NCBI RefSeq assembly: GCF_026410385.1 | Contig: NZ_JAPMLT010000017.1 | Location: 1-64,000 of the forward strand | Reading direction: 5' to 3' | Length of the DNA stretch: 64,000 nt | DNA from: Tumebacillus lacus | Lineage (GTDB): Bacteria > Bacillota > Bacilli > Tumebacillales > Tumebacillaceae | In this document: piece by piece, positions 23,100 through 60,527 of the stretch | Layout of the letters: each line of letters opens with the position of its first letter | How positions within the stretch are numbered: the stretch's first letter is position 1 | Made by a program: the position numbers and the translations under genes | The notes under the pieces: model-generated | What the model was told of the DNA's origin: nothing | What the model saw: only the letters and a program-made list of their open reading frames with translations | Databases searched by the model: none

Positions 23100-23777
23100 T
23101 TATTTCTTGGGTTTCTTTGGTTGACCGGGATGACGGAACGGGATGACGACACTTCGAAAGGTTTTTGGGATGGACAGTCTGGTTTTGATCACGGTCACGT
23201 CCTCGTGCAGGAGCGCGATCTGTTCTTGGTGCGAGTCCAACTTTTTGTCATGCCGCTTCAGGATCTCCGTGTGTTCCGCCAGCGTGTTCGACATCTCTTT
23301 CAACACAATGCGTTGCTCACGTTGTTCCTCCAACACCTCGTTTAACACGATGCGTTGCTCACGTTGTTCCTCCAACACTTCGTTTAACACGATGCGTTGC
23401 TCGCGTTGCTCTTCCAACACGCCGTCCAACACAGCACGTTGCGCGCGTTGTTCCTCCCACAGGTTGTGCATGGATGCACGTTGCGCGCGTTGTTCTTCCC
23501 ACAGGTTGTGCATGGATGCACGTTGCGCGTGTTGTTCTTCCCACAGATTGTGCATGGATGCGCGTTGCTCGCGTTGCTCCTCAAAAAGACTGCCTAACAA
23601 GGTGCGATGTTCTCTTTGTTCGTTCAGCAACTCGTGGATCAGTGAACCGTGTTCGGTCGTTGTCTGTCGTTGCAGACGTTGCTCTTTCAACAACTCGTGG
23701 ATCAGAGTTCCATGTTCGGTCGTGATCTGTCGTTGCAGACGTTGTTCCTCCAATATTTCTTGCAGGATGCTCACCAT
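23100..23777 (-). CDS. Coiled-coil protein made of 14-residue repeats
   Basis: A 225-residue protein that is almost one continuous helix. Units of 14 residues of the type ASMHNLWEEQRAQR (three copies) and IVLNEVLEEQREQR (three to four copies) sit between more diverged units (TLIHELLKEQRLQR type). At DNA level these are 42-bp tandem repeats. The C-terminus carries a heptad coil (LAEHTEILKRHDKKLDSH) and a basic, Pro-rich tail ending GQPKKPKK. There is no signal peptide or membrane segment. The function is unknown; the basic tail might bind nucleic acid or membrane. Start ATG 23777 follows AGGAGGTGAG; ATG rather than the upstream GTG fits the spacing. Confidence 0.75.
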   Translation of the reverse strand: MVSILQEILEEQRLQRQITTEHGTLIHELLKEQRLQRQTTTEHGSLIHELLNEQREHRTLLGSLFEEQREQRASMHNLWEEQHAQRASMHNLWEEQRAQRASMHNLWEEQRAQRAVLDGVLEEQREQRIVLNEVLEEQREQRIVLNEVLEEQREQRIVLKEMSNTLAEHTEILKRHDKKLDSHQEQIALLHEDVTVIKTRLSIPKTFRSVVIPFRHPGQPKKPKK

Positions 23778-23863
23778 CACTCACCTCCTCACCCCTCATG
23801 CTAGCAGGGGGCGGCGGAGGCAAGCAACGATTAATTCATTGTATCCGGCAGGCCGCCAAACGC

Positions 23864-46136: not shown

Positions 46137-46487
46137 GTGAATGTGAAGCGCGGCGACATCTATTTTGCAGATTTATCGCCCGTGGTAGGTTCGGAGCAGG
46201 GCGGTTTTCGCCCCGTGCTGGTGATCCAGAACGACATCGGCAATCGATTTAGCCCGACCGTGATAGTCGCGGCGATTACCGCGCAGATCCAGAAAGCAAA
46301 ATTGCCCACCCACGTGGAAATAGACGCAAAAACTTACGGTTTGGACCGCGACTCCGTGATTCTGCTCGAACAGATTCGTACGATCGATAAGCAGCGGTTG
46401 ACCGATAAAATCACACATCTGGACGATGAATTGATGTCCAAGGTGAATGAGTCGTTACAGATCAGCATCGGGCTGATTGAGTTTTAG
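46137..46487 (+). CDS. ndoA: Endoribonuclease EndoA (MazF-type toxin)
   Basis: A 116-residue mRNA interferase, the same length as B. subtilis EndoA and nearly identical over long stretches ([56 protein letters not shown]). MazF enzymes of this group cut at UACAU. The catalytic Arg and Thr of the family are present. GTG start 46137. Unlike in Bacillus, the sigB regulator genes do not follow. Confidence 0.95.
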
Positions 46488-46612: not shown

Positions 46613-46867
46613 ATGACGTATATGAAACCGCACCTGCAACGCCGTTCCGACTTTATCGGCACGAACCCGATCGCCGAACACAACGAAGCCGGCATCCTCG
46701 TCACCCGCGTCGGCAACGAGTATCGCTTTGCCGTGGAACTCGACGTCGACACGGTGGTCGAGGTGGAGAAGACGACCGACAAGATGGCCGTCGACAGCAT
46801 CATCAACCGGATGCTCCCGGAGTTGGACAGCATCCGCGAGCGCTTTGACGGGTGCTTCCCCGACTAA
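46613..46867 (+). CDS. Small protein of unknown function
   Basis: An 84-residue soluble protein: YMKPHLQRRSDFIGTNPIAE, then a strand-rich middle (GILVTRVGNEYRFAVELDVD) and a helical end (SIINRMLPELDSIRERFDG). Excellent ribosome-binding site GAAGGAGGGG 8 nt before the ATG, and a terminator follows. No family recognised. Confidence 0.65.
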   Translation: MTYMKPHLQRRSDFIGTNPIAEHNEAGILVTRVGNEYRFAVELDVDTVVEVEKTTDKMAVDSIINRMLPELDSIRERFDGCFPD

Positions 46868-46869
46868 AA

Positions 46870-46907
46870 ACGAAAAACCACCTGAAGCGATCTTCAGGTG
46901 GTTTTTG
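46870..46907. terminator. Bidirectional terminator
   Basis: AAAAACCACCTGAAG and CTTCAGGTGGTTTTT form a perfect stem around CGAT, between the 84-residue gene and the VIIRG peptide gene. Confidence 0.93.
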
Positions 46908-46925: not shown

Positions 46926-47006
46926 CTAGCCGCGGATGATCACGTCACCGCGAATGATAACACCGCGGATGATGACATCTCGGTCAGGAGCTTTTTTGAA
47001 TTCCAT
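46926..47006 (-). CDS. 26-residue peptide with three VIIRG repeats
   Basis: The minus strand reads ATG (47006-47004) to TAG (46928-46926) and encodes MEFKKAPDRD, VIIRG, VIIRG, D, VIIRG. The three repeats are at residues 11-15, 16-20 and 22-26, and the protein ends on the last Gly. AAGGAGG stands 8 nt before the ATG, a good promoter lies 65 nt upstream, and the bidirectional terminator lies 18 nt downstream, so all parts of a gene are present. There is no signal peptide. It may be a precursor or a strand-forming peptide; no family is known to me. Confidence 0.72.
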   Translation of the reverse strand: MEFKKAPDRDVIIRGVIIRGDVIIRG

Positions 47007-47070
47007 GAGAGAAACGCCTCCTTGTATGCCAATGGCTAGATTCAGAAAGGCTTAAGTTGATTAGCATCGA

Positions 47071-47099
47071 ATACTAACCAAACCTCACCTCGGGTTCAA
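47071..47099 (-). promoter_or_regulatory. Promoter of the VIIRG peptide gene
   Basis: On the minus strand TTGAAC (47094-47099), 17 nt and TAGTAT (47071-47076). Confidence 0.65.
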
Positions 47100-47334
47100 T
47101 ATATCATAAACATCAGGGACCAGCAAGGGTGTTATTCGCGAATTATTTAGAAGTTACAGATAATTTCAAGTATAAGTTGACGAAGTCGTAGTAAAATCGG
47201 ACTAAAACTACAGGTTTCGACATAGTTTGACTGAAGTGAATTGTGACGATCCGCTTATTTACTTGTTGGTTTGTCTTTGTATAACCTGTGCGGGGGTGGG
47301 GGAAGATAGACCTGAAGTCCTGAAAAATGAACGC
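47100..47334. other. Intergenic stretch, no gene seen
   Basis: Between the VIIRG promoter and the alaS leader promoter I see no credible reading frame or strong hairpin. TTGACG at about 47178 lacks a fitting -10. Confidence 0.5.
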
Positions 47335-47370: not shown

Positions 47371-47637
47371 CAACGCGATGAGAAAGACGAGTACGGGATG
47401 ATCCGCCGTCAGAGAGAGAGCCTCGTGGCTGAGAAGGCTCTTCGGTATTGGGATCTCGGAACGCTCCTTTCGAGCGCAGGTGACTAAAGCCTGCCGGGTG
47501 GCCCGTTACAGCCGCAACTGAGGTGACCTGAGTCGATCTTTTTAAGGAAGAGACTTGGGTAATCAGGGTGGTACCGCGAGAGTGTGAGCAACGCCTTTCG
47601 TCCCTGTTTTGACGGGGATGGAGGGCTTTTTTTATTG
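47371..47637 (+). ncRNA. T-box leader of alaS
   Basis: The T-box core AGGGTGGTACCGCG is at 47565-47578. Stem I elements are visible upstream (GAGTACG, AGAGAG, a GGCTGAGA apical motif). A candidate Ala specifier GCT lies at 47463-47465 in GGAACGCTCC. The terminator follows at about 47592-47637 (GTCCCTG and CGGGGAT arms, then seven T residues). Uncharged tRNA-Ala pairing should form the antiterminator and switch alaS on. The specifier assignment is tentative; the class is certain. Confidence 0.92.
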
Positions 47638-47677
47638 CTTTTTTGCTGTTTTTAACGAGACCCAGGAGGGATTCCAG

Positions 47678-50311
47678 ATGAAATCCAATGAGATTCGCAA
47701 TCGCTGGCTGAAGTTTTTCGAAGGGAAAGGCCATGACATCGTGCCGTCCGCATCGCTGGTGCCGCACAACGACCCGTCGCTGCTGTGGATCAACGCCGGG
47801 ATGGCGCCGCTGAAAAAGTATTTCGACGGCTCGGAACTGCCGCGCAACCCGCGCATGACCAACTCGCAAAAGTGCATCCGCACCAACGACATCGAGAACG
47901 TCGGCAAAACGGCGCGCCACCATACGATGTTTGAGATGCTCGGCAACTTCTCCATCGGCGATTACTTCAAAAAAGAAGCGATCACGTGGGCGTGGGAGTT
48001 TCTGACCGAAGAGCTGAAGTTTGACAAGGACCGTCTGTACGTGACGATCCACACCGAGGACGACGAAGCGTTCGGCTACTGGACGGAGTTGATCGGCCTC
48101 GACCCGGAGCGCATCTGCCGCACTGAAAAAGACAACTTCTGGGACATCGGTGAAGGTCCGTGCGGCCCGTGCTCGGAGATCTTCTATGACCGCAAACCGG
48201 AGCTTGGCAAAGATGAGACGTTCCACCCGGACAACCACAACGAGACCCGCTATCTGGAAGTGTGGAACCTCGTCTTCACCCAGTTCAACCACAACGCGGA
48301 CGGCTCCTACAACGAGCTGCCGAAGAAAAACATCGATACCGGCGCGGGTCTGGAGCGTCTGTGCTCGCTGCTGCAGGACGTCGAGACCAACTTTGACACC
48401 GACCTGTTCCAACCGATCATCCAAGAGACCGCACGTCTGGCAGGCAAAAAGTACCACGAGACACCGGAGATGGACATTGCGTTCAAAGTCATCGCCGACC
48501 ACATCCGCACGGTCGCCTTCTCCGTCGGTGACGGCGCGCTGCCTTCCAACGAAGGTCGCGGCTACGTCATCCGCCGTCTGCTCCGTCGTGCCGTCCGCTA
48601 CGGAAAAGTGCTCGGCATCGAGAAGCCGTTCATGTACACGCTGGTCTCTGTCGTCGGTGACATCATGGGCGAGCACTACCCGGAGATCGTGGAAAAGCGC
48701 GAGTTCATCGAGAAAGTCGTCAAGGCGGAGGAAGAGCGCTTCCACGTCACGCTGGCGGCCGGTGAGCAACTGCTCGGCGACGTGATCGCGCAAACGAAAG
48801 CGGCCGGTGCCGACACGCTGCCGGGCGACAAGGCGTTCACGCTGTATGACACCTATGGCTTCCCGATCGACCTCACCGAGGACATCGCGGCGGAGCAAGG
48901 TCTTGGCATCGACCGCGAAGGCTTTGAAAAAGCGCTGAATGAGCAGCGTCAACGTGCGCGTGCCGCTCGCAAAGACGTGGCGTCGATGAACGTGCAGACC
49001 GAAGTGTTCGACCAGCTCAAGATCGAGTCTTCTGATTTTGTCGGCTACAGCGAAACCGCTTCGGCAGCGCAGATCCTCGCGATGATCTCGGGCGGCATGA
49101 TCGTGGAAGAGGCGGAGGAAGGCGACGATGTGGAGTTGTTCCTCGACCGCACCCCGTTCTACGCGGAGTCGGGCGGTCAGGTGGCAGACATCGGCCTGAT
49201 CTCCGTTGGCGAGTCGGCGATCCTGCAAGTGCTGGACGTGCAAAAAGCTCCGAACGGCTATCACCTGCACCGTGCGAAGGTGCTCTCCGGCACGGTGAAA
49301 GTGTTTGACACCGTCGAGGCGTCCATCGACCATGAGCGCCGCGTCAACATCACGCGCAACCACACCGCGACCCACTTGCTGCACAAAGCTCTGCGCGAAG
49401 TGCTCGGCACGCACGTCGCACAGGCGGGCTCGCTCGTGTCGTCGGATCGTCTGCGCTTTGACTTCTCGCATCTGTCCGGTCTGACCGCAGAAGAGCTGGA
49501 CGTGATCGAGCGCAAAGTCAACGAAGTGATCTGGGCAAACGAAGGCGTCGAGATCCAGGAGATGGGCATCGAAGACGCAAAGAAAGTCGGCGCGATGGCG
49601 CTGTTTGGCGAGAAATACGGCGATGTCGTGCGCGTCGTCAAAGCGGGCGACTACTCCACCGAGCTGTGCGGCGGTTGTCATGTGCGCACCACCGGTGAGA
49701 TCGGCCTGTTCAAGATCGTGTCGGAAGCGTCGATCGCATCCGGCGTGCGCCGCATCGAGGCGGTCACCGGCAAAGGCGCGTATGAGTACGTCGTCGCTCG
49801 CGAACGCCTGCTGGCGGAGTCGGCCGGCAAGCTGAAAGCAAACGTCAACGACCTGCCGATGCGTCTGGACATCCTGCAAGGCAACATCAAGGATCTCAAC
49901 AAAGAGATCGAAGCGTTGAAAGGCAAGCTGGCAGCGGGCGAAGTGAAAAACCTCCTCGACCAACTGGCAGAAGTCGGCGGCGTGCCGTTCCTCGCGAAGC
50001 AGATCGACGGCGTGGACATGGACGGTCTGCGCACCATCGCGGAAGACCTGAAGAACCGTCTCGAATCCGGCGTGATCGTGCTCGGTTCGGCGGGGGATGA
50101 CAAAGTCAACTTTGTCGTCGCCGTCACCAAAGACCTCGTCGGCCGCGGCCTGCAAGCGGGCAAGATCGTCAAAGAAGTCGCAGCGATCACCGGCGGTGGC
50201 GGCGGCGGTCGCCCGGAACTCGCCCAAGCAGGCGGCAAAGACGTCAGCAAGCTCGGCGAAGCGATTGAAAAATCGCAAGAGATCCTTCTCGGCATGCTGG
50301 CAAAGGCGTAA
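47678..50311 (+). CDS. alaS: Alanyl-tRNA synthetase
   Basis: An 877-residue full-length class II synthetase. The catalytic core starts [20 protein letters not shown]; the editing domain carries [11 protein letters not shown] and [10 protein letters not shown], the four zinc-type ligands HxxxH and CxxxH. The C-terminal C-Ala domain ends in a Gly-rich [14 protein letters not shown]. It charges tRNA-Ala with alanine and clears Ser-tRNA-Ala. Start ATG 47678 follows AGGAGGG, just after the T-box terminator. Monocistronic. Confidence 0.97.
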
Positions 50312-60056: not shown

Positions 60057-60527
60057 GTGGCGAAACGTGTAAAACACAACAAGAAGAAAACGAAACAGGC
60101 GGTACGCGTCAAAGGGCAACTGGTCTTCGCACCGGGTGCGGGCGGCAGTTCCTTTGGTGTGGGCGCGACCCAAGGCCCTGGGATCGCAGGCGGATTTGGT
60201 CAGACCGGACCGTTTGGCACCTCGGCAGCGTTGGGCTTTTCCGCGACGGGTCCCGGCGGTTCCGGGATCGGCATCGGCGGTGCGCAGACTCCGGGCGTCG
60301 CACCGGGCGCACCGGGCGGCGGCGCATTTGGCGTCGGGGCATCGCAAGGGCTCGGCTTTGGCGTGGGCGGCGGTGTGTCCACTCCGTTTGGGACGCAAGG
60401 CTTTGGCATCGCAGCATCGGGCCCCGGAGGTGCGGCGTTTGGCGCAGGCGGGGCATTCCGCGGCGGCGGCTTTGGTCCGAATCCGTATGGGCGTCTCGTT
60501 CGGCGCACGATGTGGGTCTGGATGTAA
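60057..60527 (+). CDS. Gly-rich low-complexity protein, coat- or exosporium-like
   Basis: A 156-residue protein. A basic N-terminus (AKRVKHNKKKTKQAVRVKG) is followed by about 115 residues built from Gly, Ala, Ser, Phe, Pro and Thr in imperfect repeats such as FGVGATQGPG, FGVGASQGLG and ATGPGGSG. The end returns to basic residues (RLVRRTMWVWM). There is no signal peptide. Such composition is seen in spore-coat and adhesive matrix proteins, but I assign no function. GTG start behind GAGGAG. It overlaps the M23 gene by 16 nt. Confidence 0.68.
   Translation: MAKRVKHNKKKTKQAVRVKGQLVFAPGAGGSSFGVGATQGPGIAGGFGQTGPFGTSAALGFSATGPGGSGIGIGGAQTPGVAPGAPGGGAFGVGASQGLGFGVGGGVSTPFGTQGFGIAASGPGGAAFGAGGAFRGGGFGPNPYGRLVRRTMWVWM

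Follow-up and report, generated by a model that had tools for sequence, protein, structure and literature searches.

The closest described systems are the multi-copy propeptides of RRNPPA quorum sensing, which carry up to six copies per propeptide according to one paper (PMC9765709) and up to eight according to another (PMC11343458). In two phage Rap-Phr systems, extracellular proteases cut duplicated propeptides into active pheromones (PMC11343458). RRNPPA propeptide genes adjoin their receptor gene, PrgX excepted (PMC9765709). The SHP pheromones of Rgg systems are exported by PptAB, and a table of the same source records repeated units in 0 of 658 Rgg propeptides (PMC9765709). Extracellular death factors are peptides reported to act on MazF (PMC5930309, PMC7616896).

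The gene considered here lies in a 64 kb stretch of DNA, called the window throughout, with the following features in and around it.

46137 to 46487, plus strand: ndoA, MazF-like toxin gene (PF02452 PemK_toxin, E 6.5e-39).
46613 to 46867, plus strand: convergent gene of 84 codons for an 84-aa product, used as synteny anchor (no Pfam or NCBIfam match).
46873 to 46906, minus strand: intrinsic terminator stem of 15 pairs, which also faces the convergent 84-codon gene.
46926 to 47006, minus strand: open reading frame (ORF) of 26 codons with three VIIRG units, ATG to TAG (ORF list and translation).
46930 to 46943, minus strand: third VIIRG unit, GTGATCATCCGCGG (pattern match; codons as in the last unit of genomes G004, G005 and G006).
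46948 to 46961, minus strand: second VIIRG unit, GTTATCATTCGCGG (pattern match).
46963 to 46976, minus strand: first VIIRG unit, GTCATCATCCGCGG (pattern match).
47017 to 47023, minus strand: Shine-Dalgarno sequence AAGGAGG, 10 nt from the ATG of the 26-codon ORF.
47098 to 47126, minus strand: putative sigma-A-like promoter TTGCTG-17-TATATT with TG before TATATT (consensus and comparison).
47678 to 50311, plus strand: alaS (first 300 residues against PF01411 tRNA-synt_2c, E 1.6e-133).

The product, MEFKKAPDRDVIIRGVIIRGDVIIRG, has 26 residues, and the TAG stands right behind the third VIIRG unit. The original prediction of a complete tiny gene, with three VIIRG units and a peptide ending at the last of them, is thus borne out, as are the AAGGAGG and the terminator that it placed on the minus strand. 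Its "good promoter" was right as to the extended -10 element and too generous as to the -35, which is weak (3 of 6 positions); a consensus scan omits 47098-47126 and reports another site at 47142-47169. The distance from promoter end to ATG is 91 nt. Scan totals over 1.3 kb were about those of chance (3 promoter-like sites versus 1.4 in shuffles, 2 terminator-like versus 1.5). The promoter is nevertheless credible because the layout TTGnnn-17-TGnTATATT precedes the gene in all seven genomes of the family that we compared. The location between ndoA and alaS is supported by the PemK_toxin and tRNA-synt_2c matches, with the correction that the convergent 84-codon gene separates the ORF from ndoA. 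No Rfam family matched at gathering score between 45500 and 48500. The tiny 26-residue gene looks real. On the plus strand, the alaS leader (47380-47640) has GGTGGTACCGCG and a terminator stem, which are features of T-box leaders; it likewise had no Rfam match at gathering score.

The pattern coding for VIIRG, GTNATHATHMGNGG, occurs three times in the 64 kb window, always inside this ORF. The mean expected from shuffling was 0.08, and three matches were reached in 0 of 100 shuffles, for a motif picked after it had been seen. A repeat alone is no proof of a gene, since 18 of the 719 small ORFs of the window contain a repeated 5-mer; the ORF at 23359-23544 likewise has one 5-mer three times. The DNA at 23359-23823 is itself repeated, with repeated segments in several frames and on both strands, and a glycine-rich ORF of 156 aa at 60057-60527 (plus strand) contains FGVGA twice.

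The comparison covered seven genomes: the window species (G000), three of the same genus (G001; G002, Tumebacillus flagellatus; G003, T. permanentifrigoris) and three of a second genus (G004-G006); all six relatives are soil bacteria. The relatives' genes were located by position, through the 84-aa neighbour in the same genus and through alaS in the second. A minus-strand gene lies between ndoA and alaS in all seven, the window species included, with GGAGG 7-10 nt before its ATG. The terminator AAACCACCTGA...TCAGGT follows 12-73 nt past the stop in six genomes, again including the window; the seventh contig ends inside the gene. The relatives' genes are longer than the window ORF, with 90-141 aa where complete. 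Those of the same genus (138 aa in G001, 141 aa in G003) begin MKKAFAFVGLALAAALLVPA... and have YIVR units; in G002 a contig break divides the gene, with the ndoA side on one contig and the alaS side on another, and the 127-codon piece ends at a contig edge. Those of the second genus (90-93 aa) begin with a hydrophobic stretch and contain VIIRG units, as in ...FQDVIIRGDIQEEAVIIRGDAMDNGDQLAVIIRGGS..., so that three relatives carry VIIRG and three YIVR. Units of the form [VYA]I[IV]R number three in the window ORF and four to six in the relatives (four in the incomplete G002 piece). They are scattered along these proteins at steps of 11 to 29 residues, with 14 residues in three of five steps in G003, and a short non-unit tail follows the last. 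By hydropathy, all six relatives have a signal-peptide-like start (best 12-residue value 2.44-2.88, after K/R residues). Such multi-unit proteins with signal-peptide-like starts agree with the original suggestion that the repeats resemble those of precursor peptides. Against its own refuting condition, a lack of conservation of repeat number and frame, the result is mixed: 6 of 6 relatives have one open frame with similar units, but the number of units (3 versus 4 to 6) and the size differ.

The 84-aa product is 65-67% identical in the three same-genus genomes and 71% in the metagenome-assembled genome (MAG) L033, and was not found in any of the second-genus genomes (G004-G006). A contig search with it gave four loci: two in named species of the comparison above, L033, which has the neighbour and alaS with nothing like the repeat-peptide gene between them, and an alphaproteobacterial MAG (E 2e-5, 39%) judged unrelated from its flank. 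An NdoA protein is also encoded upstream at L034, L037, L038 and L039. In other families of the same taxonomic order, no such gene was present upstream of alaS at the two loci read (G041, G101).

From the shared position, the promoter, ribosome-binding and terminator signals and the resemblance of the units (AVIIRG, SAIVRG and AYIVRG align as one by eye), we infer that the window ORF and the YIVR and VIIRG genes form one orthologous family; sequence search does not join the groups. A tblastn search of 398 genomes of the class with the 26 residues gave matches at E<=1 in 18 genomes, the own one included, and a [VYA]I[IV]R unit occurred on the matched strand in 0 of 17 frames at the other loci. 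The best of these was at L008 (E 0.08), a different locus; its 21-codon frame, VIRGVILRGDVFCRG, lacks an in-frame ATG, GTG or TTG start and was judged a chance match. With the G001 protein as query nothing was found in G000 and only chance-level matches in G004-G006, and the G005 protein missed the YIVR group and the window ORF. Three-row profiles of each group, run against the 398 genomes, each recovered the group they were built from plus weak outsiders (best E 0.017 and 6.6e-4), and neither the window ORF nor the opposite group. The stronger outsider, L067 (E 6.6e-4), spans 288 codons, has VIIR once and was rejected; of the next two, L068 has none and L069 one. The G001 protein had no match in a plasmid search, and a scan of viral contigs with two patterns drawn from the signal-peptide region of VIIRG proteins, which may overlook relatives of another kind, gave 85 stretches, none of them confirmed. 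Because the queries are short and consist mostly of spacer, the misses between the groups are no strong evidence against kinship. Across the seven genomes the VIIRG pattern clusters only at this gene (3, 4, 4 and 4 matches in G000, G004, G005 and G006), all other matches being single, and protein and pattern searches, with queries of limited reach, found no paralog in the window species' own genome. No Pfam or NCBIfam family matched over cut-off for the six products other than the G002 piece; the best sub-threshold matches were BON_like (14.5 bits, cut-off 24.1) and Phr_nterm at the N-terminus of the G005 protein (13.2 bits, cut-off 25, hence no match), the latter without a similar hit in the other longer proteins compared. 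Four of the seven products were compared with PHROGs (best E 0.21). Judged by title, the open-licence PMC literature contained nothing on peptides with VIIRG- or YIVR-type units among the matches listed, and nothing relevant on small peptides or quorum sensing in Tumebacillus among the matches listed.

The units are better conserved than the spacers. With G004 defining the unit columns, 20 of 20 are invariant among G004-G006, versus 12 of the 57 remaining columns beyond column 20. When G005 or G006 defines them, AIVRG included, the figures are 21 of 25 and 11 of 52. The one (fifth) unit concerned is AIVRG in G005 and G006, where G004 has ESARR. Between G004 and G005, differing codons are synonymous or not in a ratio of 9 to 3 within units and 11 to 33 elsewhere (Fisher p 0.0024), and between G004 and G006 the ratios are 9 to 3 and 12 to 34 (p 0.0049). 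G005 and G006 are too alike for a significant contrast (1 to 0 and 11 to 21, p 0.36). Within single genes, all differences between units are synonymous in the window ORF (4 sites), G001 (3), G002 (3), G003 (6) and G004 (7), a count that is partly built in because units were picked by residue pattern. This bias is smaller for the window ORF, in which three units and one D make up the final 16 residues; a simple neutral model gives its four synonymous differences a P of about 0.007-0.009. In G005 and G006 four changes fall in non-synonymous columns, owing to the AIVRG unit.

The window copy stands apart from its relatives. It alone among the seven genomes has no signal-peptide-like start, and it is nearly without spacer; no hydrophobic stretch precedes the units, and the best 12-residue value (1.47) lies inside them. 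Its first unit differs from that of G004, G005 and G006 by one synonymous base in each case, and the GAT ahead of it is shared with G004 and G005, not with G006. It looks as if the signal peptide and the spacers had been lost in frame. AlaS of the window species is 83% identical to that of G003 and 84-85% to those of G004-G006 over 430 residues, and 91% (G001) and 89% (G002) over 100 residues only, which places the window species at about equal AlaS distance from both unit groups. VIIRG may be the older unit, since the window species sits in the YIVR genus yet has the unit of the second genus. The 26-aa peptide is a leaderless, compacted form, possibly a remnant. It is the smallest form found and not the typical one, because neither its size nor its number of units is conserved in relatives. 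Either continued use or recent decay would fit an in-frame loss that spared the units, start, promoter and terminator.

We consider it possible, at a probability of about 0.4, that the window ORF is the ortholog of a gene for an exported multi-copy precursor, which would be cut outside the cell to release peptides of 5-7 residues as a signal or other bioactive peptide. In the relatives, the precursor would consist of a signal peptide followed by several A[VY]I[IV]R(G) units on variable spacers. It would leave the cell by the Sec route, extracellular proteases would cut it, and several copies of a linear peptide would be freed. In the window species, where the signal peptide and nearly all spacer are missing, the product would be at most a bare string of units inside the cell, or would be exported by another route. 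This reading starts from the ORF, the shared position and signals and the conservation of the units, and supposes in addition the orthology of the groups, export (from hydropathy only), processing, release, activity and a continued function in the window species. It is weakened a little by the failure of the cross-group searches and by the partly built-in synonymous count.

A serious competitor, to which we give an only slightly smaller chance, is that the window copy is a decaying remnant in which deletions removed the signal peptide and spacers, leaving a 26-codon frame that has persisted by chance or because little time has passed. The lack of a signal-peptide-like start in this species alone would fit, as would the KKA near the window start, found also at the start of the three YIVR genes, the D ahead of the first unit as in G004 and G005, and the ease with which repeats may promote deletions. 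Yet frame, start, ribosome-binding site, promoter, terminator and three units are intact in a species whose AlaS is only 83-85% identical to four relatives over the 430 residues, and the four differences between its units are synonymous, though these may predate the loss. The relatives might instead encode exported structural or surface repeat proteins, for example strand-forming or amyloid-like ones, in which the unit is a strand and not a released peptide. The units are rich in V, I and Y, the 14-residue step recurs in G003, and several units are drawn as strands in a single-sequence model of the T. permanentifrigoris protein; that model carries no weight because of its mean pLDDT of 40.8 and pTM of 0.20, and speaks neither for nor against the amyloid comparison made originally. 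With unit steps of 11 to 29 residues and a unit number that varies over the six relatives, we regard the structural alternative as unlikely. A leader-peptide attenuator, or a chance ORF, is hardly credible. Val/Ile-rich codons followed by a terminator would suit an attenuator, but the minus strand has no downstream gene ahead of the convergent one, the terminator faces the 3' side of that convergent gene, and we rejected attenuation for want of a downstream gene; the relatives' 90-141 aa and the conserved units speak against both.

A true RRNPPA pheromone gene of the Phr, PapR or AimP type, with its receptor elsewhere in the genome, is improbable in our view, and more so than a structural role. 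The architecture does resemble the multi-copy propeptides of Rap, NprR, PlcR and AimR systems, as portrayed in PMC9765709 and PMC11343458, and the start of the G005 protein has its sub-threshold likeness to Phr_nterm. RNPP_C matches in six of the seven genomes at E<=0.001 and over cut-off in five; among 14 control genomes only Bacteroides ihuae matched, below cut-off. The match is, however, missing from G006 (a genome with the peptide gene), below cut-off in G005 and near cut-off in G000 and G003, and RapH_N occurs in 0 of 7 family genomes (its control matched B. subtilis and Methanocaldococcus jannaschii, over cut-off in one). The neighbours of the repeat-peptide gene are ndoA, the 84-aa gene (among the seven genomes, only in the window's genus) and alaS, with no TPR receptor adjoining, and the original remark that no processing gene stands beside the ORF extends to receptors. 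At the ten RNPP_C loci, a crude scan by ribosome-binding site and hydropathy, which flags unlikely ORFs too, found propeptide-like small ORFs of other sequence near six, with unrelated ends such as DLPPCH and LPPQH, and a frame with two VIIR/YIVR-like motifs at none.

Three of these loci, L072, L073 and L074 (in G002, G001 and G004), have small signal-peptide-like ORFs that end in LPPCH or contain LPPQH twice; from their sequence, PapR-like pheromones in Tumebacillus relatives are possible. In the own genome of the window species, L077 (contig C21, near 202345) is an RNPP_C-like match with a nearby signal-peptide-like ORF of 45 aa that ends in NPPDPLIYYSGEQL.

The exported multi-copy precursor reading has partial likenesses to several known systems. 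With the Phr/RRNPPA propeptides it shares Bacillota origin and a small precursor, here of predicted export, that carries several copies of a short peptide and spacers; it differs in the lack of an adjoining receptor gene, and in the relatives' units, which are spread over the protein and followed by a non-unit tail. By analogy, the precursor perhaps works like a pheromone precursor; as to RRNPPA membership, the missing receptor neighbour speaks against it. SHPs are short, with a charged start, a hydrophobic end and no classical signal peptide. The window copy is similar in all four respects, but has repeated units and no adjoining Rgg-type gene. With the extracellular death factors it has in common the pentapeptide scale and the nearness to ndoA/mazF, found in seven of seven genomes, which may be mere synteny. 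The E. coli extracellular death factor is not known to derive from a precursor with repeats.

What began as a one-off ORF has become a small gene family with named relatives and a conserved short unit. As a rather doubtful proposition, these genes could represent a new, receptor-orphan class of multi-copy extracellular peptides outside RRNPPA, in which the unit is what is mainly selected, which one species has stripped to bare units, and which, given the constant position near ndoA/mazF, could act on that toxin. If released, the unit would be a peptide signal encoded in several copies, with no receptor beside its gene. RRNPP_detector looks for a propeptide beside its receptor (PMC10075063), and searches that rely on receptor adjacency would then overlook this family because no receptor adjoins the gene. 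The window copy would show, as a naturally minimal example, which part of the precursor is retained.
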